Source of the DNA: Hyphomonadaceae bacterium
GTDB taxonomy: Bacteria > Pseudomonadota > Alphaproteobacteria > Caulobacterales > Maricaulaceae
Length of the DNA: 64,000 nucleotides
Assembly: GCA_013001295.1 (NCBI GenBank)
Contig: JABDMW010000046.1
Span: 184,309-248,308 of the forward strand
Direction: 5' to 3'
Shown here: positions 18,861 through 30,618 of the stretch, one piece after another
How positions within the stretch are numbered: position 1 is the first letter of the stretch
Layout of the letters: every line of letters begins with the position of its first letter
The notes under the pieces: model-generated
The model's database searches: none
What the model was told of the DNA's origin: nothing
Seen by the model: only the letters and a program-made list of their open reading frames with translations
Position numbers and translations under genes: made by a program

Positions 18861-18925
18861 TTTGGTTGCTTTTGAGCAGAACACGGCGGTCAAGATCGTG
18901 AATGTGAAAAGGTGTGGGAACTAAA

Positions 18926-21900
18926 ATGGCCAATCAAGAAGTCTTATTGTGGGCAAGACGTCTGGCAGTAGCTGCCGGGTCTATTGCTGCCTACGGGACT
19001 GTCAGCGCCCATGCAGCTGATCTCGGCCAAACCGTAACCAATATCGCTGTCGTCAGTTATGAGAACGCGGACGGTGGACGATTAAGGGTTATCACCAATC
19101 CGGCACAATTTGTTGTAGAGGCCGAACGTACGGCTTCGACAATTGAATTCTTTCGCTATTCACCAAATGGCGCAAACGCCGACATTGTTCAAATCAATGG
19201 GGCGGACTATAGCGCAACGGGCGACACCAATGGAACATTCGCAGCAATGCCCTTGCCAACACTGGGCCAAAACACACCTCTAAATCTCGGCGATTCTATT
19301 CCGCTTATCCCCGCATCCATGTATAATGCCGGCGAGATCATGTTTGTCCGTGTGACGGATCCGGGGCAGAATGGCAACCCAAATGAGATTGAAACCATCG
19401 TTGTCACGATTGAGACCGACGCTGGCGACACTATAACTCTGAGATTATATGAGTCAGGCCCGGATACAGGCCACTTTTGGGCTTATGTCCCGTCGACGCG
19501 TAAAATCACACCCATCAATGACACGGAACTGACGACTGAACAAGGCACGCAAATAACTGCGACTTATATAGATTCTTTTGATTCTACTGAGATTTCAATA
19601 GATACGGCTCTCGTTGATCCACACGGCCGCGTGTTTAACGGGCTGACAGGTGAATTGGTCAACAACGCTCGCGTAACATTGATCGACTATACAACCGGAT
19701 TGCCTGCCGTCGTTTACGGCGTAGACGGCGTCTCGGAATTTCCGGCGCAATATCTAACTGGGTCGACGGTTGCAGACGAAAGCGGTCTCCCGTATGAGCT
19801 TCGTTCGGGCGAGTTTCGCTTTCCCATCGTTCCGGCGGGACAATATGAAATCCGGGTCGAGCCGCCGCAGGGATTAAGTTTTGCGTCTTCGCTTGCGCCG
19901 GAAGATTTTGATGGCTTGGACAATGCGCCGTTTACGGTTGAAGACACGGCGTCTTACGGTCTTACTTTTACACAGGAGATCGCAGGGCCGCTGCATTTCG
20001 ATATTCCACTCGACGCCGATACAGAGTTGTTGGTCGGGAAAACAGCCAATGTTGAATACGGAGATGTTGGCGATTTCATCACCTACACGGTAAACGTTGA
20101 AAACTCCGGTCTGGCCGGTGCGCCCGTTATTTTGCGTGACACGCTTCCTGACGGGTTTCGCTATGTGTCAGGCTCAACGCGCGTGGGCGGGCAAAGCTTT
20201 GCGGAGCCTCAAATTGCAGCAGATGGTGAAGAGCTGATCTTTGATTTGGGCACATTGTCATCCGCACTAGCAGTGAACCTCACTTATGTTTTAGAAATCG
20301 GTGCCGGCGTTGAGCCAGGGGACGATGCCGTGAATGCGGTTGTGGCGATCGATCGAAATGGCAATTCCATTTCCAACATCGCGCGGAAAGAAATTGCTAT
20401 CCGGGAAGATCTGTTCCGGACACGCAGCACGCTTGTCGGCCGGATTTCAGAACAATCCTGTGACGGCGAAGAAGACTGGGCACGTGAAATCACAAAAGGC
20501 ATCGGCGTCGAAGGCGTCCGCCTTTATATGGAAACCGGTGCTTACGCGGTAACCGACGAAGACGGCCTATATCACTTTGAGGGAGTGACCGGCGGCACCC
20601 ATGTTGTTCAACTCGACGAGGAAACATTACCACAAGGCTATGAGCCGATGGTGTGTGAAGAAAGCACGCGCTATGCCGATAATCCGACTTCAAAATTTAT
20701 TGAAATTCAAGGCGGGGGGCTATGGCGCGCCAATTTTTATCTCAAAAGAACCGGTGAGGTTGTTGAAGAGAAAAAAGTAGAAGCCTTCAATGATCTGGTC
20801 GAATACAAACGATATAACGGAGAATGGCTGGCAACACAGACTGACGAAGTAGATTGGGTTTATCCATCGCCGGACCGCACGCCGTCAATTCCTTCGACCA
20901 ATATCGGGATCAAACATGCGCCGAATCAAAGGGTTGAACTAACCCTTAATGGCCGTGACATCCCCTCATTTAACAAGGCGGGACGCGATACGGATGCGCA
21001 GCGCACAGTCATGATCAGTCGCTGGCGCGGTGTGGATTTGCTCGAAGGCCGCAACGATTTTGTCGCCAAAGTACTCGATGCTGATGGCACCACGATCAGA
21101 ACGATCAAGCAAGACATCCATTTTGTAAAAAATATCAGCCGGGCTTCGGCCGTTCCGGATCAGTCGATTCTGGTTGCGGACGGACGCACCAATCCTGAAT
21201 TGGCGATACGTCTGGAAGATGAAGCCGGTCGGCCTGTGCATGCAGGTCGCGTGGCGCAAATCGATATCGAGGCGCCGTACCGTTTGTTCAACCAAGCCCA
21301 GATTGAGGGTGAAGCCGAACTCGTGACGCCCAATTCCGCACGGACCAATGTGTCTGTGGGAGCGGATGGAATTGCACGTATCAAGCTTGAGCCTACGCTT
21401 AAGACCGGCAAGGTCACAGTGGTTGTCACTTTAGATAATGGCCGCAAGGTCGAACTGTTCATGTATTTACAGCCAGAGAAGCGCGATTGGATTTTGGTTG
21501 GTTTAGCGGAAGGCAGTATTGCCTATAATGCATTAACTAATAAGGCGCGAACATTGGCCGGCGGCGCCCTTCAGGACCTTGAGGGAGATGGCCGGGTTGC
21601 CTTTTTCGCCAAAGGCATGGTTAAAGGCGATTGGTTGATGACGCTGGCCGTAGATACGGACAAGCGTCGTGGGGACCGTGATGGAGACTTCAATACTGAA
21701 ATCGACCCCAATGCCTATTACACACTGTATGGTGATCGTTCGTACAACGAATTTGAAGCGGTCAGTCGGTATCCGGTATACTTAAAACTCGAGAAAAAAT
21801 CCTTTTACGCTATGTTTGGGGACTTCAATACGGATATCACCGAAGGCAAACTAACCCGGTATTCCCGTCATTTGTCTGGTTTTAAAGGCGAGTATCTCGG

Positions 21901-24007
21901 CGAGGCTTTTCAAGCCGCGGCTTTTGCTGCGGAAACCAATCAGGGCTTCGCCAAAGACGAGATCGCAGCCAATGGGACGAGCGGACCATACCGCTTGTCG
22001 AACAACCGTGTCCTGGCCAATTCAGAAACGATTACAATTGAAACCCGCGACCGTGTACGCGCGGACCTGATATTGGAAAGCCGTCGTCTTATTCGGCATC
22101 TTGATTATACGATCGACAACTTCACCGGTGAGATCATTTTCAAATCGCCCGTTGACGTCACGGATTCCGGCTTTAATCCAAATGTGATTGTGGTTGATTA
22201 CGAAACCGCGAACGACAGCGAGCGCAATGTGACCTATGGCGGTCGCGTCCAAAAGCAAATTTTGGATAAGAAAATTCAAATCGGGTCAACATTCGTCCAT
22301 GAAGGCGGCAACAGCGCCGTTGCCGGCGGCGAAGCCGAGATGATCGGCATCGATGCCGTGGCGAAGGTTGGAAAAGGGACGGAAGTCCGGGCCGAATACG
22401 CCCGCGCCCGCAATAGCGATGATGAACTGGGCTCTGAGAGCGTGACCAGCGAAGCATACTTAGCCGAGATTATCCATACGAGCGAAAAACTGCGGGCCGA
22501 TGCCTATGTGCGTCAGGAAGAGGGAGGTTTCGGTCTGGGACAAAGAGGGTCCGCGACCAATGACCGTCGCCGCTATGGTGCTAACGTAGCCTACAAAATC
22601 GACGAAATTGAGAACGAGGACGGCGGCGAACGCGGCGAGCGCAACGTCACGGCCAGCCTCTATAAAGAAGATAATCTGACGACGGGTGATAGCCGGCGTC
22701 TGAGCGAAGTAACATTTAATCACGACACGAAAAATTTCGGCGCCTCGGCTGGTTTACGGCAGGTAAAAGATGATTTGGAAACGGGCTCAGACCGCGACTC
22801 AGTACTTGCATTGATCAGTGCCCGCTTTCATGTCCCGAAACATGGTGCGACATTCGAGGTGTCGCACGAACAGCCACTGGGGAGCGAAGATACAGTCAGT
22901 GATTTCCCGGAGCGTACCCGTTTAAGTGTTGAAAAGTCCATCACGTCCAAAGCGCGTGTTCGGGTTAGTCATGATATTTTGGGGGGCGAAAACAATGGCG
23001 GCCAGAATACCGTCCTCGGTGTGAGTTATAAACCCTGGAACGGTACGGAGCTTACCGGCGGTACAGATGTGGTGACATCGGATTCTGGACGCCGCATTGG
23101 CGCCACCGTCGGCGTTGACCAGCAAATCCAGATAAATAATAAATGGACGGCCTCCGCAGGGGTTTCAAACCGTCAGATTATCGGGTCGGACGGCCCGATC
23201 GAACAGGTTGCGCCCGATGCTGCGGTTTCTTCGTTTGAACGAAACGAATCTTTCACGGCCGCCTATGTGGGTGTCGGATACCGCAACAAAAATACCAGCG
23301 CGTCTGCGCGGATCGAAGCGCGGGAAACAAGCGCGACCGACACCTATACGGCCGTGCTAGGTGCGGCCCGCGAAGTCTCAGAAGAATTATCATTTGCCGG
23401 CGCATTGCGCGCCACCCATGCGGACGAGACCGCGAACATTGCTGAAAATGATATTATCGCGACAAACCGAAATACGGATCGTTTGGATGGGCGTCTCGGC
23501 CTGGCATGGCGGCCGAAGGATGAAGACATCATTGTCTTAAACCGTTTTGACATTGGTTATAACGACCAGGTCAATGGCGATAAAACATTTAAAGTCGTCA
23601 ACAATCTGGCTGTCAATGCGCAGGTCACAGACCGATGGCAGCTCAGCGCCAACCATGGTGTAAAATATGTAGAATCTTCAGCAGGCGGCGATACCTATTC
23701 CGGTACAACGCATTTACTGGGCGCAGAAACCCGCTACGACATTACTGAGAAAGTTGATCTTGGTCTGCATGGCTCCGTTGTCCATAGTCCGGGAGCGGAC
23801 ACCACAAGTTATGCCTTCGGGCCCTCAATCGGCGTTTCCCCCGTTGAAAATGTCTGGGTCAGTTTGGGCTATAATGTCACCGGGTATAGTGACCGTGATT
23901 TCCAGGCAGCCGAATATTCACGCAAAGGTGTTTATGTGAAAATGCGTGTTAAATTCGATCAAAACGCAGCGAAGGAAATATTGGATATTATTTCACCGTC
24001 TAACTAG
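18926..24007 (+). CDS. Giant DUF11/SdrD-B-like protein with C-terminal outer-membrane beta-barrel
   Basis: 1,693 residues from ATG at 18926; a GTG at 18914 is in frame, but GGGA sits 7-8 bp before the ATG. A signal peptide ends near SAHAADL. A DUF11-like domain lies at about 365-495 (GDVGDFITYTVNVENSG). An SdrD-B/carboxypeptidase-regulatory-like domain lies at about 500-610 (VRLYMETGAYAVTDEDGLYHFEGV). An Ig-like domain lies at about 740-850. From about 852 to the end come many alternating amphipathic strands with acidic turns, ending in YVKMRVKFDQ and a short tail, as expected for an outer-membrane barrel. A large surface-exposed, barrel-anchored protein is inferred. I do not recognise a named family for the whole protein. 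Confidence 0.75.
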   Translation: MANQEVLLWARRLAVAAGSIAAYGTVSAHAADLGQTVTNIAVVSYENADGGRLRVITNPAQFVVEAERTASTIEFFRYSPNGANADIVQINGADYSATGDTNGTFAAMPLPTLGQNTPLNLGDSIPLIPASMYNAGEIMFVRVTDPGQNGNPNEIETIVVTIETDAGDTITLRLYESGPDTGHFWAYVPSTRKITPINDTELTTEQGTQITATYIDSFDSTEISIDTALVDPHGRVFNGLTGELVNNARVTLIDYTTGLPAVVYGVDGVSEFPAQYLTGSTVADESGLPYELRSGEFRFPIVPAGQYEIRVEPPQGLSFASSLAPEDFDGLDNAPFTVEDTASYGLTFTQEIAGPLHFDIPLDADTELLVGKTANVEYGDVGDFITYTVNVENSGLAGAPVILRDTLPDGFRYVSGSTRVGGQSFAEPQIAADGEELIFDLGTLSSALAVNLTYVLEIGAGVEPGDDAVNAVVAIDRNGNSISNIARKEIAIREDLFRTRSTLVGRISEQSCDGEEDWAREITKGIGVEGVRLYMETGAYAVTDEDGLYHFEGVTGGTHVVQLDEETLPQGYEPMVCEESTRYADNPTSKFIEIQGGGLWRANFYLKRTGEVVEEKKVEAFNDLVEYKRYNGEWLATQTDEVDWVYPSPDRTPSIPSTNIGIKHAPNQRVELTLNGRDIPSFNKAGRDTDAQRTVMISRWRGVDLLEGRNDFVAKVLDADGTTIRTIKQDIHFVKNISRASAVPDQSILVADGRTNPELAIRLEDEAGRPVHAGRVAQIDIEAPYRLFNQAQIEGEAELVTPNSARTNVSVGADGIARIKLEPTLKTGKVTVVVTLDNGRKVELFMYLQPEKRDWILVGLAEGSIAYNALTNKARTLAGGALQDLEGDGRVAFFAKGMVKGDWLMTLAVDTDKRRGDRDGDFNTEIDPNAYYTLYGDRSYNEFEAVSRYPVYLKLEKKSFYAMFGDFNTDITEGKLTRYSRHLSGFKGEYLGEAFQAAAFAAETNQGFAKDEIAANGTSGPYRLSNNRVLANSETITIETRDRVRADLILESRRLIRHLDYTIDNFTGEIIFKSPVDVTDSGFNPNVIVVDYETANDSERNVTYGGRVQKQILDKKIQIGSTFVHEGGNSAVAGGEAEMIGIDAVAKVGKGTEVRAEYARARNSDDELGSESVTSEAYLAEIIHTSEKLRADAYVRQEEGGFGLGQRGSATNDRRRYGANVAYKIDEIENEDGGERGERNVTASLYKEDNLTTGDSRRLSEVTFNHDTKNFGASAGLRQVKDDLETGSDRDSVLALISARFHVPKHGATFEVSHEQPLGSEDTVSDFPERTRLSVEKSITSKARVRVSHDILGGENNGGQNTVLGVSYKPWNGTELTGGTDVVTSDSGRRIGATVGVDQQIQINNKWTASAGVSNRQIIGSDGPIEQVAPDAAVSSFERNESFTAAYVGVGYRNKNTSASARIEARETSATDTYTAVLGAAREVSEELSFAGALRATHADETANIAENDIIATNRNTDRLDGRLGLAWRPKDEDIIVLNRFDIGYNDQVNGDKTFKVVNNLAVNAQVTDRWQLSANHGVKYVESSAGGDTYSGTTHLLGAETRYDITEKVDLGLHGSVVHSPGADTTSYAFGPSIGVSPVENVWVSLGYNVTGYSDRDFQAAEYSRKGVYVKMRVKFDQNAAKEILDIISPSN

Positions 24008-24071: not shown

Positions 24072-27041
24072 CTAAGCAGACAGGGCCTGTTGTTGCTTTT
24101 GACGAAGTTGTTTGCGCCGGGCGAACCGGATCGAGCTGAATAATTCGCTGACGATAACCGGTTTGGTCAGGAATACATCAGCGCCAGCAGCTAAACATTC
24201 CGCATTGTTTTCTGCCGATGCGTCTGCAGTTAAAGCAATAATCGCCGTATTGCATTGTGGTTCGGGTAGACTGCGAATAGCTTTTGTCGCCTCGATCCCG
24301 TCCATTACCGGCATACGGATATCCATGATAACTGCATCAAATGATTGTGCGTTCATTATGTCTATTGCCACTTGGCCGTTCTCGGCACAACTGACTGAAC
24401 ACCCGACGGGTTCTAAAAGCGAGCGCAGGATTTCCAGATTGGCTTCAATGTCTTCAACTACCAATATGTTGAGGCCGGTTAACTGGTCGGGCTCAATTTC
24501 CGGCGAATCAGATCTGGGTTGTTGACGGGAGAAACCTGCGCGGGGATTTTCTGTGGATTTTGGGACTGACAAAGTTTCGTTGCCCAGATTCGGCGACTCG
24601 GTTGATTGTTCGGACTGATCGGTGATGTCTCCAGCAATTGTTTCAAATTCTGCCTCGTCCTCGTCTGTAAGTTCGAATTCGTCGCTTTCGGCCTCGCGCT
24701 CGGAATTAATTGGCTCTTCGACGGCAGGCGTTAGCGATTCCTGTTCTAATTGAGCTTTTTCTCTGGCCGCCAAATCCGCCCGTAATTTTTCTATTGAGAC
24801 AGCTGGTGAGAAGTCAATTTTCGTGGATTCGGTCGGTACTACTTCGAAGATCGGACGGTTTGTTGCAGGGTTTATTGCTGCATCTGTAGCCGCGCAAGTT
24901 TTCACGACCATTTTAAACTCTGAGCCGCGCCCTGCTGTTGACGTCATCGTGACGTCGCCACCCATAAGTCGCGAAAGGCCGCGGGTAACGGCGAGACCAA
25001 TTCCGGCTCCGTCATGACTTCGCGTGAGTGAGCTATCGGCCTGAACAAAGGGCTTAAACAGTTTCTCTTTGACCTCATCAGTAATACCTTGACCGGTATC
25101 CGCAACGATCATGGTCAAGTCGCGCACACCCTTGCGGTCCGGATCGCTCATTGTCGCATGAATATGAATGCGGCCTTCCTCAGTAAATCTCACGGCATTG
25201 GCGATTAAATTAGACAGGCCCTGTTTCACGCGGATGCTGTCGAGCATAAGATCGTCCGGTACATTGTCGGCGACGAAACACGTAAATTGAACTTTGGAGT
25301 CGTCAACATCCGCCTTGGCAGCCTGATACAGCCCGTTAATAATTTCACGGATGCTGGCGGGCGCCGTGACAATGCTAAGTTTTCCTGATTCCATTTGTGC
25401 CATATCCAAAATTCCGCTGAGCAATTGAAGGAGGTTTTCACCTGATTTCAAGATCAACTTATTGTAGTTTCTAAGCTCTTCGGTTTCCCCTTTCTCCGAT
25501 AATATACCCGCAATTCCTATTATCCCGTTAAGAGGTGTGCGTAATTCATGGCTCATGACCGATAAGAATTGCGACTTGGCGCGATCGCCGGCTTCCGCAT
25601 CAAGAGCGGCAATTTCGAGTATTTTACTTATTTTTTGACTCCAAATTGCAAATGCAATCGCTGCCGCGGCAATCAGGAGGAGCGAGCCTGCCAAGGCCAT
25701 CAAAAACACATTTGAGCGTTGCTTGGCTTCCAGTTCACTTTGTTTGAGTTCTGCTTCGCGTAAGAGGGCCACTTCACGCTCGGCTTGGCGATCTTTGTCA
25801 TTTTCGAGATTGGCCTGGAGACTTTGAATGCCTTTGGATTGACGGCTAAGCTGCAATTGGACAATTGACTTTAATTGATCATTTAGGAGTTTAGCCGTTG
25901 AGGGAGCATCGTTTTTGGCGATAGCAATTAATGCTTGAACCTTAAGTTTTATGGCTTGGTGTTCGTTGGGGCTCAGTTTGGATTGGGCTAATAATTTTTC
26001 GTATTCGTGTAAGCTGTTTTCCGCTTTATCAATCTGATTCAGGCCGGCGAAAGAAATGGCGCGGGCAAGTTCAAGGCTAGGTTTCAGGTCCGGATCGTCA
26101 GTTAGCGCAATCCCTTCGTTCAATGTTTCCAACGCTTCCGCATAATGACCACCGTTATTTTGAGCCTGCCCATAGCGATAATACGCTAAGTCGTTTTTAT
26201 TGCCGTCAACTTGTTGGCTGAGACGGAAAAGGGCGCCGGCGAGGAGTTCTGCAGTTTCGAATTCCTGCCAGGAATTGAAGACATAGGTCAAGTTATTGAT
26301 CAACCCAATGCCGTCAATTGCGCGGTTTTGGGCGATCCCTTTGTTGAGTATCTGCTCAGTTGTTTCGACGCCGAGTTCGATATTGATGAGCGAAAGTTGA
26401 ATAAAAGCGATTTGATCATAGGTTTCGTATTGGGCTTCAATGACGTCATCGGATAACTCGCTCGGGATTAATCGAAGAGCGTTTTGCGTGTCCCTTAAAG
26501 CGATATCGAAATTACCCTGGTAAGTAGGGAGCGTCGATTCCATTAACGCTGCCCTCTGCGCAACGAACCAATCCGGGTTGCTTCTGTACTGTTGGAGGGC
26601 GTTTAGGTTCGATTTTCGGATTGTCTCGTCGTTTTCTTCGCCTTGCAGCAAGAGTTGCAACCGAATGATTTCTGCGATTGCTGCATCCCGATGGCTTCCT
26701 GTCTGTTCGGCAAATGACCTGTATGCGGGTAATAAATCCTCAATAGGAGCGCCGTTGCGGAAAACTGAATCCATCACGAGGCGGCGTAAAGAAACTAATT
26801 TCTCGCCGTGGGGTTTACTCGACCGAATGACATCTTCTGCTGTAGCTGCTGCTTGAACAAACAGTCGTTGTTGTTCAATTTTCTGCGCTAATTCAAGAGC
26901 CTTAGATTTAGTTTCATCCGGTACGATCGAATTTGTTTGAGCATGTGTTGGGTTTGTAAACACAACAAAAAGGGCAATCAAAAAAAATAGCCCCGTTAGG
27001 TATGTTCGAATCTTACTTGTCTGAAAACGTTGCCGAAACAC
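24072..27041 (-). CDS. Hybrid histidine kinase with periplasmic TPR sensor region and receiver domain
   Basis: 989 residues starting at GTG 27041, with AGGAT 7 bp upstream. A signal/anchor segment occupies about 13-35. About 400 residues of TPR-like helices follow and should lie in the periplasm. A single membrane helix spans about 444-467. The HisKA dimerisation helix has phospho-acceptor H498 (SVMSHELRTPLNG). A HATPase domain with G-box (GQGITDEV, GAGIGLAVTRGL) and an acidic linker follow. The C-terminal receiver has phospho-acceptor D907 (AVIMDIRMPVMDG). No output domain is present, so phosphate must go to a phosphotransferase encoded elsewhere. It lies directly downstream of the repeat-peptide gene, which has its own terminator. 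TPR domains commonly bind peptides, so a link is worth testing. Confidence 0.88.
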   Translation of the reverse strand: MFRQRFQTSKIRTYLTGLFFLIALFVVFTNPTHAQTNSIVPDETKSKALELAQKIEQQRLFVQAAATAEDVIRSSKPHGEKLVSLRRLVMDSVFRNGAPIEDLLPAYRSFAEQTGSHRDAAIAEIIRLQLLLQGEENDETIRKSNLNALQQYRSNPDWFVAQRAALMESTLPTYQGNFDIALRDTQNALRLIPSELSDDVIEAQYETYDQIAFIQLSLINIELGVETTEQILNKGIAQNRAIDGIGLINNLTYVFNSWQEFETAELLAGALFRLSQQVDGNKNDLAYYRYGQAQNNGGHYAEALETLNEGIALTDDPDLKPSLELARAISFAGLNQIDKAENSLHEYEKLLAQSKLSPNEHQAIKLKVQALIAIAKNDAPSTAKLLNDQLKSIVQLQLSRQSKGIQSLQANLENDKDRQAEREVALLREAELKQSELEAKQRSNVFLMALAGSLLLIAAAAIAFAIWSQKISKILEIAALDAEAGDRAKSQFLSVMSHELRTPLNGIIGIAGILSEKGETEELRNYNKLILKSGENLLQLLSGILDMAQMESGKLSIVTAPASIREIINGLYQAAKADVDDSKVQFTCFVADNVPDDLMLDSIRVKQGLSNLIANAVRFTEEGRIHIHATMSDPDRKGVRDLTMIVADTGQGITDEVKEKLFKPFVQADSSLTRSHDGAGIGLAVTRGLSRLMGGDVTMTSTAGRGSEFKMVVKTCAATDAAINPATNRPIFEVVPTESTKIDFSPAVSIEKLRADLAAREKAQLEQESLTPAVEEPINSEREAESDEFELTDEDEAEFETIAGDITDQSEQSTESPNLGNETLSVPKSTENPRAGFSRQQPRSDSPEIEPDQLTGLNILVVEDIEANLEILRSLLEPVGCSVSCAENGQVAIDIMNAQSFDAVIMDIRMPVMDGIEATKAIRSLPEPQCNTAIIALTADASAENNAECLAAGADVFLTKPVIVSELFSSIRFARRKQLRQKQQQALSA

Positions 27042-27111: not shown

Positions 27112-27140
27112 ATAAAAAAAACCCGCTTTTCAGCGGGTTT
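27112..27140 (-). terminator. Strong rho-independent terminator of the repeat-peptide gene
   Basis: On the minus strand AAACCCGCT (27140-27132) pairs with AGCGGGTTT (27127-27119) around a 4-nt loop, with eight U completing and following the 3' arm. It begins 42 bp after the peptide stop codon and isolates that gene from the kinase gene. Confidence 0.92.
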
Positions 27141-27182
27141 CCACATTCGTAATTATTTGAAGTGACGATTAGATCGGTTCAA

Positions 27183-27308
27183 TTAAGTTTTAATTGAGCG
27201 ACCGCTTGTTTTAATCGAGCGATTGCCCGTCTTAATTGAGCGACTGCTGGTCTTAATAGAGCGACCACCTACAACAACTTCAATTTCTTTTTTGGTTAGT
27301 TCACGCAT
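27183..27308 (-). CDS. Double-glycine-leader precursor peptide with four RSIKT repeats
   Basis: A 41-codon gene. The leader MRELTKKEIEVVVGG has the hallmarks of double-glycine export leaders: hydrophobic positions spaced along a short helix (L4, I9, V12, V13) and GG at -2/-1. The 26-residue core consists of four RSIKT pentapeptides separated by the dipeptides SS, GN and SG. It contains four Arg, four Lys and no acidic residue, so it is strongly cationic. The four units differ at synonymous positions: the Thr codons are ACC, ACG, ACA and ACT, Ser is TCT/TCA/TCG/TCA and Lys is AAG or AAA, while the amino acids are identical. This is strong evidence for translation and selection on the peptide. 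GGGGAA lies 6 nt before the ATG. The C39 exporter gene ends 136 bp upstream on the same strand. I know no described family with this core; function (bacteriocin, signal, other) is unknown. Confidence 0.85.
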   Translation of the reverse strand: MRELTKKEIEVVVGGRSIKTSSRSIKTGNRSIKTSGRSIKT

Positions 27309-27314
27309 AATGAA

Positions 27315-27320
27315 TTCCCC
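27315..27320 (-). promoter_or_regulatory. Ribosome binding site of the repeat-peptide gene
   Basis: GGGGAA on the minus strand with a 6-nt gap to the ATG at 27308. It supports the start codon of this short gene. Confidence 0.8.
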
Positions 27321-27330
27321 AGTCGTTAAT

Positions 27331-27352
27331 ATAGTAACCAAATCGTTACTAT
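27331..27352 (-). promoter_or_regulatory. Perfect palindrome at the start of the peptide transcript (operator or hairpin)
   Basis: ATAGTAAC and GTTACTAT are perfect 8-bp inverted arms around a 6-nt spacer. They lie immediately after the predicted -10 box and just before the ribosome site. The site could be a repressor operator or a 5' UTR hairpin controlling translation. Confidence 0.65.
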
Positions 27353-27358
27353 GTATGG

Positions 27359-27387
27359 TAAATAACTGATTAATAGGGCTTTTTCAA
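27359..27387 (-). promoter_or_regulatory. Predicted sigma-70-type promoter of the repeat-peptide gene
   Basis: On the minus strand TTGAAA (27387-27382), a 17-bp spacer and TATTTA (27364-27359). It predicts a transcription start near 27352, at the edge of the palindrome. Confidence 0.55.
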
Positions 27388-27444: not shown

Positions 27445-29517
27445 CTAGAGCTTTTCAATCTTGTGAATCGCGTCCGATCTATCGATTAACTGTGGCCGAT
27501 GTGCAACAATTACGCGGGTAATTTGCATGGATTCCAGTACATCGGCGATTTTTTCCTCTGTTTCCGGATCCAGATTGGCTGTTCCCTCGTCCAAAAACAG
27601 AATTTTCGGGTCATGATACAATGCGCGGGCCAGCAATATTCGCTGTTTTTGGCCTCCAGACAGCACGCTACCCATATCGCCAACATGCGAAAGGAAATTC
27701 ATAGGCATATCTGCGATTTCATCGAAAATCTGAGCGTTTCGTGCGGCCTGATAGACTTTTTCCATATCGACTTGGGGATCAAAAAAACTGATATTGTCGG
27801 CGATGGTGCCCGAAAGGAGTTTGTCGTCTTGCATAACGACACCGATTTGCGAGCGCCAATGCCCCATCCCGATATCCGAGAGAGGCTTGCCGTCTATTTC
27901 GATTTTCCCGTCTGTAGGCGGATAAAGCCCTAAAATCAACTTCATCAGCGTTGTTTTACCGCCGCCGCTGACACCAGTGATCGCCACCATACTGCCGGCC
28001 CCGATCTCCATATTCAGATCTTTGAGAACCCAGGGATCATTGTCCGAATACCGAAAACTGACATTCTGGATTGAAATTTTTCCCGCAATCTCTGCGCTTT
28101 GGGATTGTACAAGCGAGAGATTTTCGCCGTCCGCATAGACAATATCGGCCAGCCGGTCGAGATGGAGCCCCAACAACCTGAATTCAATCCCTTTTTGCAA
28201 CAACTGTTTAATCGACTCGGTAAAATGTTGTTGATAGCCCAAAAAAGCAAAAAGCATGCCGACAGAGAATGCGCTGGCGTCGCCCATGATTAATTTGGCA
28301 CCGAGATATACGGCGATGACGATTTGCAGGCCTATGAGCAAAGTCTCGAAAAATTTTTGCGATACCAGAAATTTTCCGTGGGCCGTGCTGGCATTTATCG
28401 TGTCCGCAAATAAGTTGCGCCAGATCGCTTCCCGTGCGGCCTCGCGGCCGAACAGTTTAATGGTTGTAGAGGCGCGTATGCTTTCAATGACATGGCTTTC
28501 TTCGATCGCTTGTGAAACGATCGCTTCCTCTTCGGTGCGGCGCAGGTGCGGATAAAGCACCCAAGTCGCAAGCGCGAGCAGAGCGGTCATCACCAGGACA
28601 ATTGCGCCAAGAAGTGGCGAGTACATGAACAGCACCACGAGCGTCAGTACAGCCATGATCCCGTCGAGAAGAATAGCAACCACGGATTCCGTCAAGGCCT
28701 CCTGTATGGGCCGCACCGAGCCAATCCGGGAGATTAGATCGCCGATATGCCGTTTTTCGAAATATGAAGTTGGCAGCCTGATCAGATGCCTGAAAATATT
28801 GCCCACCATCTGGAAGGTCATCTGGTTGCCATAGACAATTATCGCCCATCCGCGGACCGCTTCTGATACGGCACGAATAATGACAAGACCGCCAAACCCT
28901 AAAAGCAAGGACCAAAGGAGATTGGCATCATTGGGGCCAATAGCCTTGTCAACCACCAACTGCAAGTAAAATGGAGCGGCCAATGCCGCGAACTGTAAAA
29001 TAATCGACAGGGTCAGGGTTTGAAAAATGGCCCGTTTTAACCCGGTCATTTTTTGCCACAGATCTGACAATCTTGGCTTCAGCCTGTTCTCGATCTTATT
29101 GAAATCCGCGGCCGGAGTGAGTTCAAGGACAACACCGGAAAAATGATCGGAAACTTTGGCCATCGACATGATGCGCAGGCCGCGGCCCGGATCAATAAAA
29201 TGAACCTTGCCGTTTTTGACCTGCTTAAGCACGACAAAATGATTCAGGTCCCAGTGCAGAATTGCCGGCGTTTGCAATTTGTGAAGATGCTCCAGATCAA
29301 CGCGCAAGGCGCGGGACGTCAGGTGCAAATCGCTGGCGGTCGCCATGATTTGATTCAGGCTCGCCCCTTTCAACGATATCGCCGCTGTTTTGCGCATGGC
29401 ATTGAGGTCGACATCCTGTCCATGATAGCTGGCAATCATAACGAGACAGGCGAGACCGCATTCCGTCGCTTCGGTTTGCAGAACCGTAGGGAGATACTTG
29501 CGGCCCGGCAGAGTCAT
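27445..29517 (-). CDS. Peptidase C39-containing ABC exporter (bacteriocin/double-glycine peptide type)
   Basis: 690 residues from ATG 29517, which overlaps the stop of the upstream remnant as ATGA; a more distal ATG at 29544 is possible but less family-like. The N-terminal C39 protease has oxyanion Q14, catalytic C20 (TECGLACL), H93 (NHFVVL) and D109 (FIDPGRG), so it looks active. A six-helix transmembrane domain follows. The nucleotide-binding domain has Walker A GVSGGGKTT (Lys 521), signature LSGGQKQR and Walker B KILFLDEGTANLD. Such proteins cut double-glycine leaders and export the core using ATP. The repeat-peptide gene downstream is the obvious cargo. Dedicated lantibiotic or radical-SAM modification enzymes are not encoded nearby. 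Confidence 0.92.
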   Translation of the reverse strand: MTLPGRKYLPTVLQTEATECGLACLVMIASYHGQDVDLNAMRKTAAISLKGASLNQIMATASDLHLTSRALRVDLEHLHKLQTPAILHWDLNHFVVLKQVKNGKVHFIDPGRGLRIMSMAKVSDHFSGVVLELTPAADFNKIENRLKPRLSDLWQKMTGLKRAIFQTLTLSIILQFAALAAPFYLQLVVDKAIGPNDANLLWSLLLGFGGLVIIRAVSEAVRGWAIIVYGNQMTFQMVGNIFRHLIRLPTSYFEKRHIGDLISRIGSVRPIQEALTESVVAILLDGIMAVLTLVVLFMYSPLLGAIVLVMTALLALATWVLYPHLRRTEEEAIVSQAIEESHVIESIRASTTIKLFGREAAREAIWRNLFADTINASTAHGKFLVSQKFFETLLIGLQIVIAVYLGAKLIMGDASAFSVGMLFAFLGYQQHFTESIKQLLQKGIEFRLLGLHLDRLADIVYADGENLSLVQSQSAEIAGKISIQNVSFRYSDNDPWVLKDLNMEIGAGSMVAITGVSGGGKTTLMKLILGLYPPTDGKIEIDGKPLSDIGMGHWRSQIGVVMQDDKLLSGTIADNISFFDPQVDMEKVYQAARNAQIFDEIADMPMNFLSHVGDMGSVLSGGQKQRILLARALYHDPKILFLDEGTANLDPETEEKIADVLESMQITRVIVAHRPQLIDRSDAIHKIEKL

Positions 29518-29729
29518 GTTGAAGATCCGATCGCCCATTTCCATATCGGGGTCGCAGTGCCATCAATATTTATTGTACCGAAGAGGCCAAAACAGACGAT
29601 GCCGGCGAAAATCAACGCGAGCAGTCCCGTGATGATCCATGTGCTGATCGGACCCGCCAGTATAACCTCGCCAAAAAGCGCCCGGGTGCGGTGTTTTACC
29701 GCTTCTTCGCGAAACAAATCATCGGTCAT
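29514..29729 (-). pseudogene. Truncated HlyD-type adaptor: N-terminal anchor only
   Basis: 71 codons. The first 60 match the start of HlyD/CvaA adaptors that partner C39 exporters: FREEAVKHRTRALFGEVILAGP, shown here only in part, then one membrane helix (about 31-52) and a GTxxxDGTATP turn. The reading frame then continues for ten unrelated residues and stops at the exporter start. The coiled-coil and beta-barrel portions that reach the outer membrane are missing, as if deleted at about 29550. The stop TGA overlaps the exporter ATG (ATGA), so the remnant may still be translated and coupled to the exporter. It could be a simple pseudogene or a retained small membrane subunit. Confidence 0.75.
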
Positions 29730-29868: not shown

Positions 29869-30618
29869 ATGAAAAATATTTCCTTGGTACTCGTCCCTTC
29901 AGCATTCTTTTTGGCCGGCGCCTTCGCATTGGCGGCTCCCCAGGCAGTCCTCGCGGCACAAGTGTCCACCTTGGAAATTAGCCAAAAAAATATTGCGCTC
30001 ACTTATCCGAAAACCGTCGTGGAGCTATTTACCTCGCAAGGGTGCTCGTCTTGTCCTCCGAGCAACAAATTGGTGCGCGATATTGCCGACACGGATGGTC
30101 TTTTGGCCTTGTCTTATTCGGTTGATTATTGGGATTATCTGGGGTGGAAAGATACGCATGGCAGCCCGACTTTTTCCGAGCGCCAACGAGACTACGGCAA
30201 AAGGCAATTTCAGGGCCAAGTCTATACGCCCCAAATTATTCTCAATGGCGAAACCCATGCCGCACGTTTCAAATCGGATCAAATAACCCAGCACAAATTG
30301 ACTGAAGATAAATCAGGTCTGGTTCTGCACCGCAACAATGCCGGGTTAAACGTCAAAGCAAAGGGGCTTGCGGGCACGCTAATTGAAGTCAGATACACTG
30401 CGGGCACTCAATCTGTTCCGGTGGCCAGAGGCGAGAACCGCGGCCGTACCATCACGCTGGCCAATGTGGTCACGTCGGTAAAAACACTTGGCGAATGTGA
30501 TGAAAACAAAGTGTTTGAAACAGTTGTGCCGCCGCCGTCTGACGGCGAAGGACTGGCAATATTGATGCAAGACGGGAAGGGCGGACCGATCATTACGGCA
30601 GCCAATTACACGCCTTGA
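29869..30618 (+). CDS. DUF1223 family secreted thioredoxin-like protein
   Basis: 249 residues. A signal peptide is obvious (KNISLVLVPSAFFLAGAFAL, then AAPQAVLAAQ). The DUF1223 hallmark VVELFTSQGCSSCPPSN follows, with cysteines C59 and C62 as a CxxC redox pair. A YSVDYWDYLGWKD segment and YTPQIILNGE complete the thioredoxin-like fold. It is widespread in alphaproteobacteria with unknown physiological role; a periplasmic thiol function is inferred from the CxxC. It is divergent from the exporter remnant, and nothing ties it to the peptide system except position. Confidence 0.9.
   Translation: MKNISLVLVPSAFFLAGAFALAAPQAVLAAQVSTLEISQKNIALTYPKTVVELFTSQGCSSCPPSNKLVRDIADTDGLLALSYSVDYWDYLGWKDTHGSPTFSERQRDYGKRQFQGQVYTPQIILNGETHAARFKSDQITQHKLTEDKSGLVLHRNNAGLNVKAKGLAGTLIEVRYTAGTQSVPVARGENRGRTITLANVVTSVKTLGECDENKVFETVVPPPSDGEGLAILMQDGKGGPIITAANYTP

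Follow-up and report, generated by a model that had tools for sequence, protein, structure and literature searches.

A small minus-strand gene in a Hyphomonadaceae genome (contig JABDMW010000046.1, positions 184,309 to 248,308, a stretch of 64,000 nucleotides hereafter called the window) lies between the genes for a C39 peptidase ATP-binding cassette (ABC) exporter and a hybrid histidine kinase, and its product is a double-glycine (GG) leader followed by four identical RSIKT units. We propose, with a probability of about 0.6, that this precursor yields several copies of a five-residue signal, which would be cut and moved across the inner membrane by the C39 exporter and read by the tetratricopeptide repeat (TPR) domain of the kinase. 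Our best reading of the arrangement is short-peptide signalling in a Gram-negative, from precursors that can hold several copies, with a signal that probably acts within the periplasm or by way of it. In relatives, a gene with one to four copies of a short peptide occupies the corresponding position between the exporter and sensor-kinase genes, which makes a signal peptide its likely product. An earlier note on this DNA, which described the peptide gene and the exporter, is borne out in part, and two elements that it did not mention, a HlyD stub ahead of the exporter gene and the TPR hybrid kinase after the peptide gene, change the picture. The elements concerned, all on the minus strand, are as follows.

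29514..29729, minus strand: HlyD N-terminal stub, 71 residues, with one predicted membrane helix and no hairpin or barrel part
27445..29517, minus strand: C39 peptidase ABC exporter (Pfam PF03412, E 6.5e-34; the longest frame begins at 29544)
27183..27308, minus strand: GG precursor gene, 41 residues, four RSIKT units (a frame of 41 codons plus stop)
27264..27308, minus strand: double-glycine leader MRELTKKEIEVVVGG, 15 residues (from the translation and the leader consensus of 37 precursors)
27249..27263, minus strand: unit 1, RSIKT, followed by linker SS (27243-27248)
27228..27242, minus strand: unit 2, RSIKT, followed by linker GN (27222-27227)
27207..27221, minus strand: unit 3, RSIKT, followed by linker SG (27201-27206)
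27186..27200, minus strand: unit 4, RSIKT, running up to the stop codon
27141..27145, minus strand: TGTGG motif directly ahead of the terminator hairpin (from comparison of cassette 3' regions)
27114..27140, minus strand: intrinsic terminator, a hairpin plus T run between the precursor and kinase genes (our own scan)
24072..27041, minus strand: hybrid histidine kinase, 989 residues, with an N-terminal membrane helix or signal, TPR sensor, membrane helix (residues 445-463), HisKA, HATPase and receiver
25722..26936, minus strand: TPR sensor region of the kinase, residues 36-440, predicted periplasmic

A conserved cassette in one alphaproteobacterial family

The order of truncated HlyD stub, C39 exporter, very small GG precursor and hybrid histidine kinase defines a cassette of one alphaproteobacterial family (Robiginitomaculum, Hellea, Litorimonas and Algimonas). 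We counted 72 exporter loci, the window included, leaving out the order-level loci L027, L096, L097 and L098, none of which showed a TPR kinase match. A stub of 63-119 residues, comprising the N-terminal part of HlyD and one membrane helix, precedes the exporter in 41 of the 72 loci; HlyD measures 406-428 residues in nine others and 167 residues in one, and in 21 none was detected on the exporter's strand, which the scan covered; some of these 21 have a full-length HlyD on the opposite strand. Of the 41 stub loci, 33 have a GG precursor 3' of the exporter, and the remaining eight contigs stop within 208 bp, so that the precursor occupies the same position in every stub cassette readable that far (33/33, the window and 32 others), which is more than chance. 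The TPR hybrid kinase comes next in 32 of the 41, the remaining nine contigs stopping within 425 bp, and none of the 31 stub-free loci has such a kinase at >100 bits within 2.5 kb. This constant position, together with the canonical leader described below, supports the earlier suggestion that the peptide is the exporter's cargo.

The precursor family came to light solely through reading downstream of orthologous exporters. No Pfam or NCBIfam model matches the window peptide. Searched without the start Met (positions 27183-27305), the 40-residue query found nothing in a protein search at E <= 1, gave only weak matches in 99 relatives (best 0.015, many of them in unrelated long frames), and occurs once in the genome that it comes from (59 contigs, 3.49 Mb). 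Exporter orthologues, other exporter kinds included, are present in 36 of the 99 relatives' genomes at E <= 1e-60 and in 61 of 137 family genomes at E <= 1e-200. A scan of GTDB genomes gave at least 569 confirmed relatives, and among the best 80, which we examined, 11 have the short stub (Robiginitomaculum, Hellea, Litorimonas, Algimonas and unnamed Caulobacterales or alphaproteobacteria); in the remaining 69, HlyD is longer or was not detected, and a pattern search of them found no precursor with a core of fewer than 12 residues. Dozens of genomes carry the cassette, including that of the named strain Litorimonas cladophorae KCTC 23968, whose core is NPIVIDF.

The exporter gene ends 136 bp ahead of the precursor start codon, exactly as the earlier note had it, and its ATG (29517) overlaps the stop codon of the stub as ATGA. 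Residues Q23, C29, H102 and D118, which from their spacing we take to be catalytic, are invariant across 17 aligned C39 exporters. The cassette operons hold the stub only, and no full-length membrane fusion protein of the kind found in type I secretion systems was detected in them; a fusion partner for the exporter may be encoded elsewhere.

The genome of the window holds a second, weakly C39-like ABC protein with a HlyD-like protein (G000:C15:95011-98477; L246, L249). At L080 the exporter accompanies the HlyD of 167 residues, between stub and full length, and no kinase or short precursor was found there. In Pleionea (L135), one of the 69 scanned relatives without the short stub, a distant hybrid kinase match (1384 residues, 139 bits) lies 744 bp past an exporter with full-length HlyD, an arrangement possibly related to the cassette outside the family.

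One to four copies of a short core

Translation confirms the minus-strand gene of 41 codons first described, and its product reads MRELTKKEIEVVVGG-RSIKT-SS-RSIKT-GN-RSIKT-SG-RSIKT*. The four units differ in their Thr codons (ACC, ACG, ACA, ACT), Ser codons (TCT, TCA, TCG, TCA) and Lys codons (AAG, AAG, AAA, AAA), which makes six or more silent changes while no residue is replaced, so the synonymous divergence noticed earlier is real. Ahead of the start codon, GGGGA (27316-27320) provides the ribosome-binding-like site that had been claimed. The strong terminator of the earlier description was recovered in our own scan as a hairpin (CCCGCT-GAAA-AGCGGG, -13.3 kcal/mol) followed by eight T, and a terminator scanner listed none at this locus, we think because part of the T run is paired into the stem. 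The promoter boxes do not exceed chance: a promoter scanner returned no site against 1.3 expected, and the best pair of boxes has 8 of 12 matches, where relatives' best pairs, chosen in the same way, have 8-11. Across the family, a terminator T run lies 25-68 nt past the precursor stop in 31 of 33 cassettes, and TGTGG occurs in the 70 nt that follow this stop in 20 of 33, compared with 2.4 expected by shuffling.

We collected 37 GG precursors, 33 from stub cassettes and four (L254, L257, L258 and L259) beside kinases on other contigs. All 37 have a canonical leader, with L at -12, E at -8, hydrophobic residues at -7 and -4, and GG or GA at -2/-1; the leader of one relative scores 14.2 bits against TIGR03949, for which 21.5 are needed. 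Single-core precursors predominate (28/37), with a total length of 20-26 residues and a core of 5-9 residues, once 11, often of the form xPIVIxx; examples are MRELTLEEIEIVTGG-SPIVIDF, MRDLTMEEVEIVTGG-FPILINN and MRELTIEELEIVTGG-TPIVIRN. Eight are tandem: besides the window (RSIKT x4), these are L075 (FPIDIEV x2), L082 (LPADIEW x4), L219 (FPIIIG x3), L223 (TPIDIEL x3), L227 (IPVIDF x4), L254 (SGPVIIET x3) and L259 (LPIDIEV x3). Two atypical members fall outside the pattern, L079 with a 31-residue core (TKSAEKTEKQATESAIPEIDCLNRRRRACGA) and L214 with a second GG (MPILTGGIGEN).

In all eight tandem precursors the units are identical as protein and differ in their codons. The minimal changes within units number 34, all silent (counted in six of the eight, the other two being judged by eye), a count that is biased because identical units help to define such genes; the silent codon drift nevertheless indicates that the copies are not new. 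The linkers mostly vary (SS/GN/SG, GKA/EKA/DKA, IAGS/IVSA, APGV/EPSV, AEAPTSA/VEASA, VVGT), with L082 using ATA throughout. In the exporter tree, the 11 rows of its genus include no tandem member besides the window, and a clade of 19 includes none besides L219; a hand-coded count gives at least four gains or losses of the tandem state.

These patterns support reading the repeats as several copies of one short peptide, in the sense of the release of identical peptides envisaged earlier; trimming at Arg or Lys does not extend to the family as a general rule, since only L227 among the seven other tandem precursors has Lys in its linkers. Alternatively, the whole 26-residue core might be the ligand, uncut and multivalent on the TPR solenoid, with the repeats providing avidity. 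The linkers (SS, GN, SG; ATA; GKA, EKA, DKA; VVGT) show no clear common cleavage motif, and a solenoid could offer several similar grooves, but the 28 one-unit precursors are paired with the same type of receptor, and it is the linkers that mostly vary and not the units. We therefore regard an uncut ligand as unlikely.

Cores beside kinases without an adjacent exporter

The sensor domain is present in 43 of 137 family genomes, and no cassette exporter was found in seven of these, four of which can be read upstream of the kinase. In the others (L252, L253 and L260) the kinase starts too close to the contig end for the peptide region to be read; G122, one genome of this group, has a C39 fragment that may be a cut-off cassette exporter. 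Among the readable loci, L254 (G014) has a three-unit GG precursor beginning 196 bp ahead of the kinase, and an exporter with full-length HlyD sits ~1.3 Mb away. The remaining three have leaderless mini-genes of 8-11 codons, MRGPIIIL in L251 (G123), MTKNPIIIG in L255 (G032) and MSIRKQPIVDF in L256 (G106), each followed 3' by a terminator-like hairpin (in L251 and L255 identified by eye) and then the kinase.

When the L251, L255 and L256 stretches were each shuffled 2000 times with dinucleotides preserved, a mini-frame of this kind arose 5, 0 and 2 times, for a pattern that was set after the cases had been seen. No such core lies upstream of the 16 order-level kinase homologues (0/16), which have other small frames only. 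The kinase of G106 matches the sensor profile weakly (64.8 bits). No C39 domain was found in G123 (96% complete) at E <= 0.001, and the C39 domains present at other places in G032 (73% complete) and G106 (92%) are of another kind, judging from their scores. In these four loci without an adjacent exporter, then, the kinase keeps a core beside it, and the cores that lack a leader are those for which no cassette exporter turned up.

The sensor kinase

Hydropathy predicts two membrane helices flanking the TPR sensor, and the structural model of the sensor resembles the RRNPPA peptide-pheromone receptors, with a predicted fold of the TPR peptide-receptor type. All 26 sensors compared have N250, which might or might not take the place of RapF Asn227, the strictly conserved Asn by which RRNPPA receptors hold the peptide backbone; the NN pair is also common in peptide-free homologues. 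A comparison of the sensor with AimR, the one receptor profile used, gave an hhalign probability of 0.2% and thus no sequence homology.

Several results limit the case for a peptide-reading kinase of the kind we propose. A contrast model of a peptide-free sensor homologue is also RRNPPA-like, so the fold alone is no proof of peptide binding. Covariation between peptide and sensor, once exporter divergence was removed, was absent (partial r -0.06, p 0.70, n=25), and charge complementarity between core and sensor was not significant (rho -0.26, p 0.21, n=25). RSIKT itself was found in no relative, either in the search of the 99 genomes or among precursors read beside exporters, though relatives that keep the exporter retain a precursor, which favours the gene. 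Within the genus, a post hoc comparison of core and sensor charge gave rho -0.64 (p 0.07, n=9), and of the nine members compared it is the window that pairs the most basic unit with the most acidic sensor, no more than a hint.

The negative covariation test, like the fixed gene neighbourhood, could also be accommodated if the peptide acted on the exporter or envelope, serving its maturation or quality, while what the kinase monitored was export and not the peptide. Kinase and core occur together in four loci without an adjacent exporter, which argues against this explanation, and we consider it quite improbable.

Homologous TPR kinases also occur in other families of the order (L291-L306), many beside an aroA-like gene, and no peptide gene was found with them. 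The sensor model of homologues of this type resembles Rap receptors with a higher Z than does the cassette sensor. These kinases may sense peptides of other origin.

Proposed route of the signal

We propose that the precursor is translated and its leader recognised, and that the C39 domain would cut after GG, as the canonical leader and conserved exporter residues suggest. Release would take place on the periplasmic side, periplasmic delivery being expected because the HlyD stub lacks the portions that extend to an outer-membrane channel. A peptidase would then separate the units at the small-residue linkers, and a free unit would bind the TPR domain and control the phosphorelay. A unit has a mass of about 600-800 Da; the computed [M+H]+ values for the window are 604.378 for RSIKT, 778.442, 775.442 and 748.431 for units with a linker, and 2849.639 for the whole core. 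At such a size, units might leave the periplasm through porins, so both a private periplasmic (autocrine) loop and a population signal are conceivable.

A GG leader with a C39 exporter is the usual layout of microcins and bacteriocins, and the window core, with eight basic residues and no acidic one, would suit the secreted cationic bacteriocin or microcin-like peptide that the earlier note offered as an option. That option fares poorly: 21 of 25 scored cores are neutral or acidic, HlyD is merely a stub, the Pfam and NCBIfam models, those of precursor families included, do not match the window peptide, and the cassette has a sensor kinase instead; moreover, no frame of at least 60 residues lies between stub and kinase in the listed cassettes, where a smaller or distant immunity gene is possible. 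We judge it very unlikely. Least probable of all is a translated leader peptide governing transcription attenuation of the kinase gene, for which the T run in 31 of 33 cassettes, the Ile/Val-rich composition of most cores and the persistence of leaderless mini-frames without an exporter could speak, since a run complementary to the 5' arm of the terminator exceeded shuffles at p<0.05 in none of 31 cassettes (mean 5.2 vs 4.7 bases), the window core has only one Ile per unit, and the GG leader and exporter would be left unexplained.

Taking the family as a whole, we put forward tentatively, at somewhat less than even odds, that Gram-negatives have an equivalent of RRNPPA signalling that works outside the cytoplasm. 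Its receptors would be TPR hybrid kinases in the periplasm, and its signals linear peptides, 5-9 residues long, brought there by C39 exporters with an HlyD partner reduced to a membrane stub. The genes for these signals would extend from tandem multi-copy precursors to leaderless genes of 8-11 codons.

Two genes adjoin the cassette in the window. On the plus strand at 18914-24007, a gene for a DUF11/SdrD-like protein of 1697 residues faces the kinase, and L076 and L079 have relatives of this gene next to their kinase. On the plus strand at 29869-30618, a DUF1223 protein gene is divergent from the HlyD stub; it adjoins the cassette in L062 and L087 too.

Comparison with known systems

The streptococcal ComAB-ComC-ComDE system encodes a GG precursor, a C39 exporter and a histidine kinase together, as the cassette does. 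ComD, however, is a polytopic kinase, whereas hydropathy predicts two membrane segments for the TPR hybrid kinase of the cassette, and the ComC core has ~17 residues compared with 5-9 in the cassette, where units may also be tandem. The yeast alpha-factor precursor holds several pheromone units with spacers between them; the multi-unit layout is alike, but its secretion and processing are eukaryotic and unrelated.

Linear signal peptides that have a receptor of their own are a theme of Gram-positives, and the RRNPPA systems (Rap-Phr, NprR-NprX, AimR-AimP) share with the cassette a TPR solenoid receptor beside a tiny peptide gene; in phi3T, aimP follows aimR. Those receptors are intracellular and have been described for Gram-positives and their phages, and their effector is a helix-turn-helix or 3-helix domain, whereas here the TPR region is predicted to be periplasmic and is fused, in a Gram-negative, to a hybrid kinase with HisKA, HATPase and receiver. 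One report describes PhrF as the pentapeptide QRGMI, bound extended along the TPR groove (PMC3601957). RRNPPA receptors are likewise described there, and in a 2026 review, as intracellular and from Gram-positives (PMC3601957, PMC13220807), and the review places RRNPP-type linear peptide receptors under Gram-positives (PMC13220807).

We found no published description of the cassette in literature judged by titles and abstract openings. The closest stated problem is that of HetC in Nostoc PCC 7120, for which a 2024 paper reports a C39 exporter in a Gram-negative with no membrane fusion protein gene nearby and proposes periplasmic export (PMC10986499). The same paper suspects a signalling peptide, although the substrate of HetC has yet to be identified and its surroundings hold no GG gene, and states that evidence for a non-toxin-export role of Gram-negative C39 exporters was absent (PMC10986499). 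The cassette differs from HetC in having a candidate substrate and a candidate receptor both adjacent. Because dozens of genomes, one of them from a named strain, hold exporter, candidate peptide and candidate receptor together in a small cassette, the question becomes directly testable. The natural series from one to four units, along with the leaderless cores, also illustrates the ways in which a gene for a peptide signal may gain and lose length.
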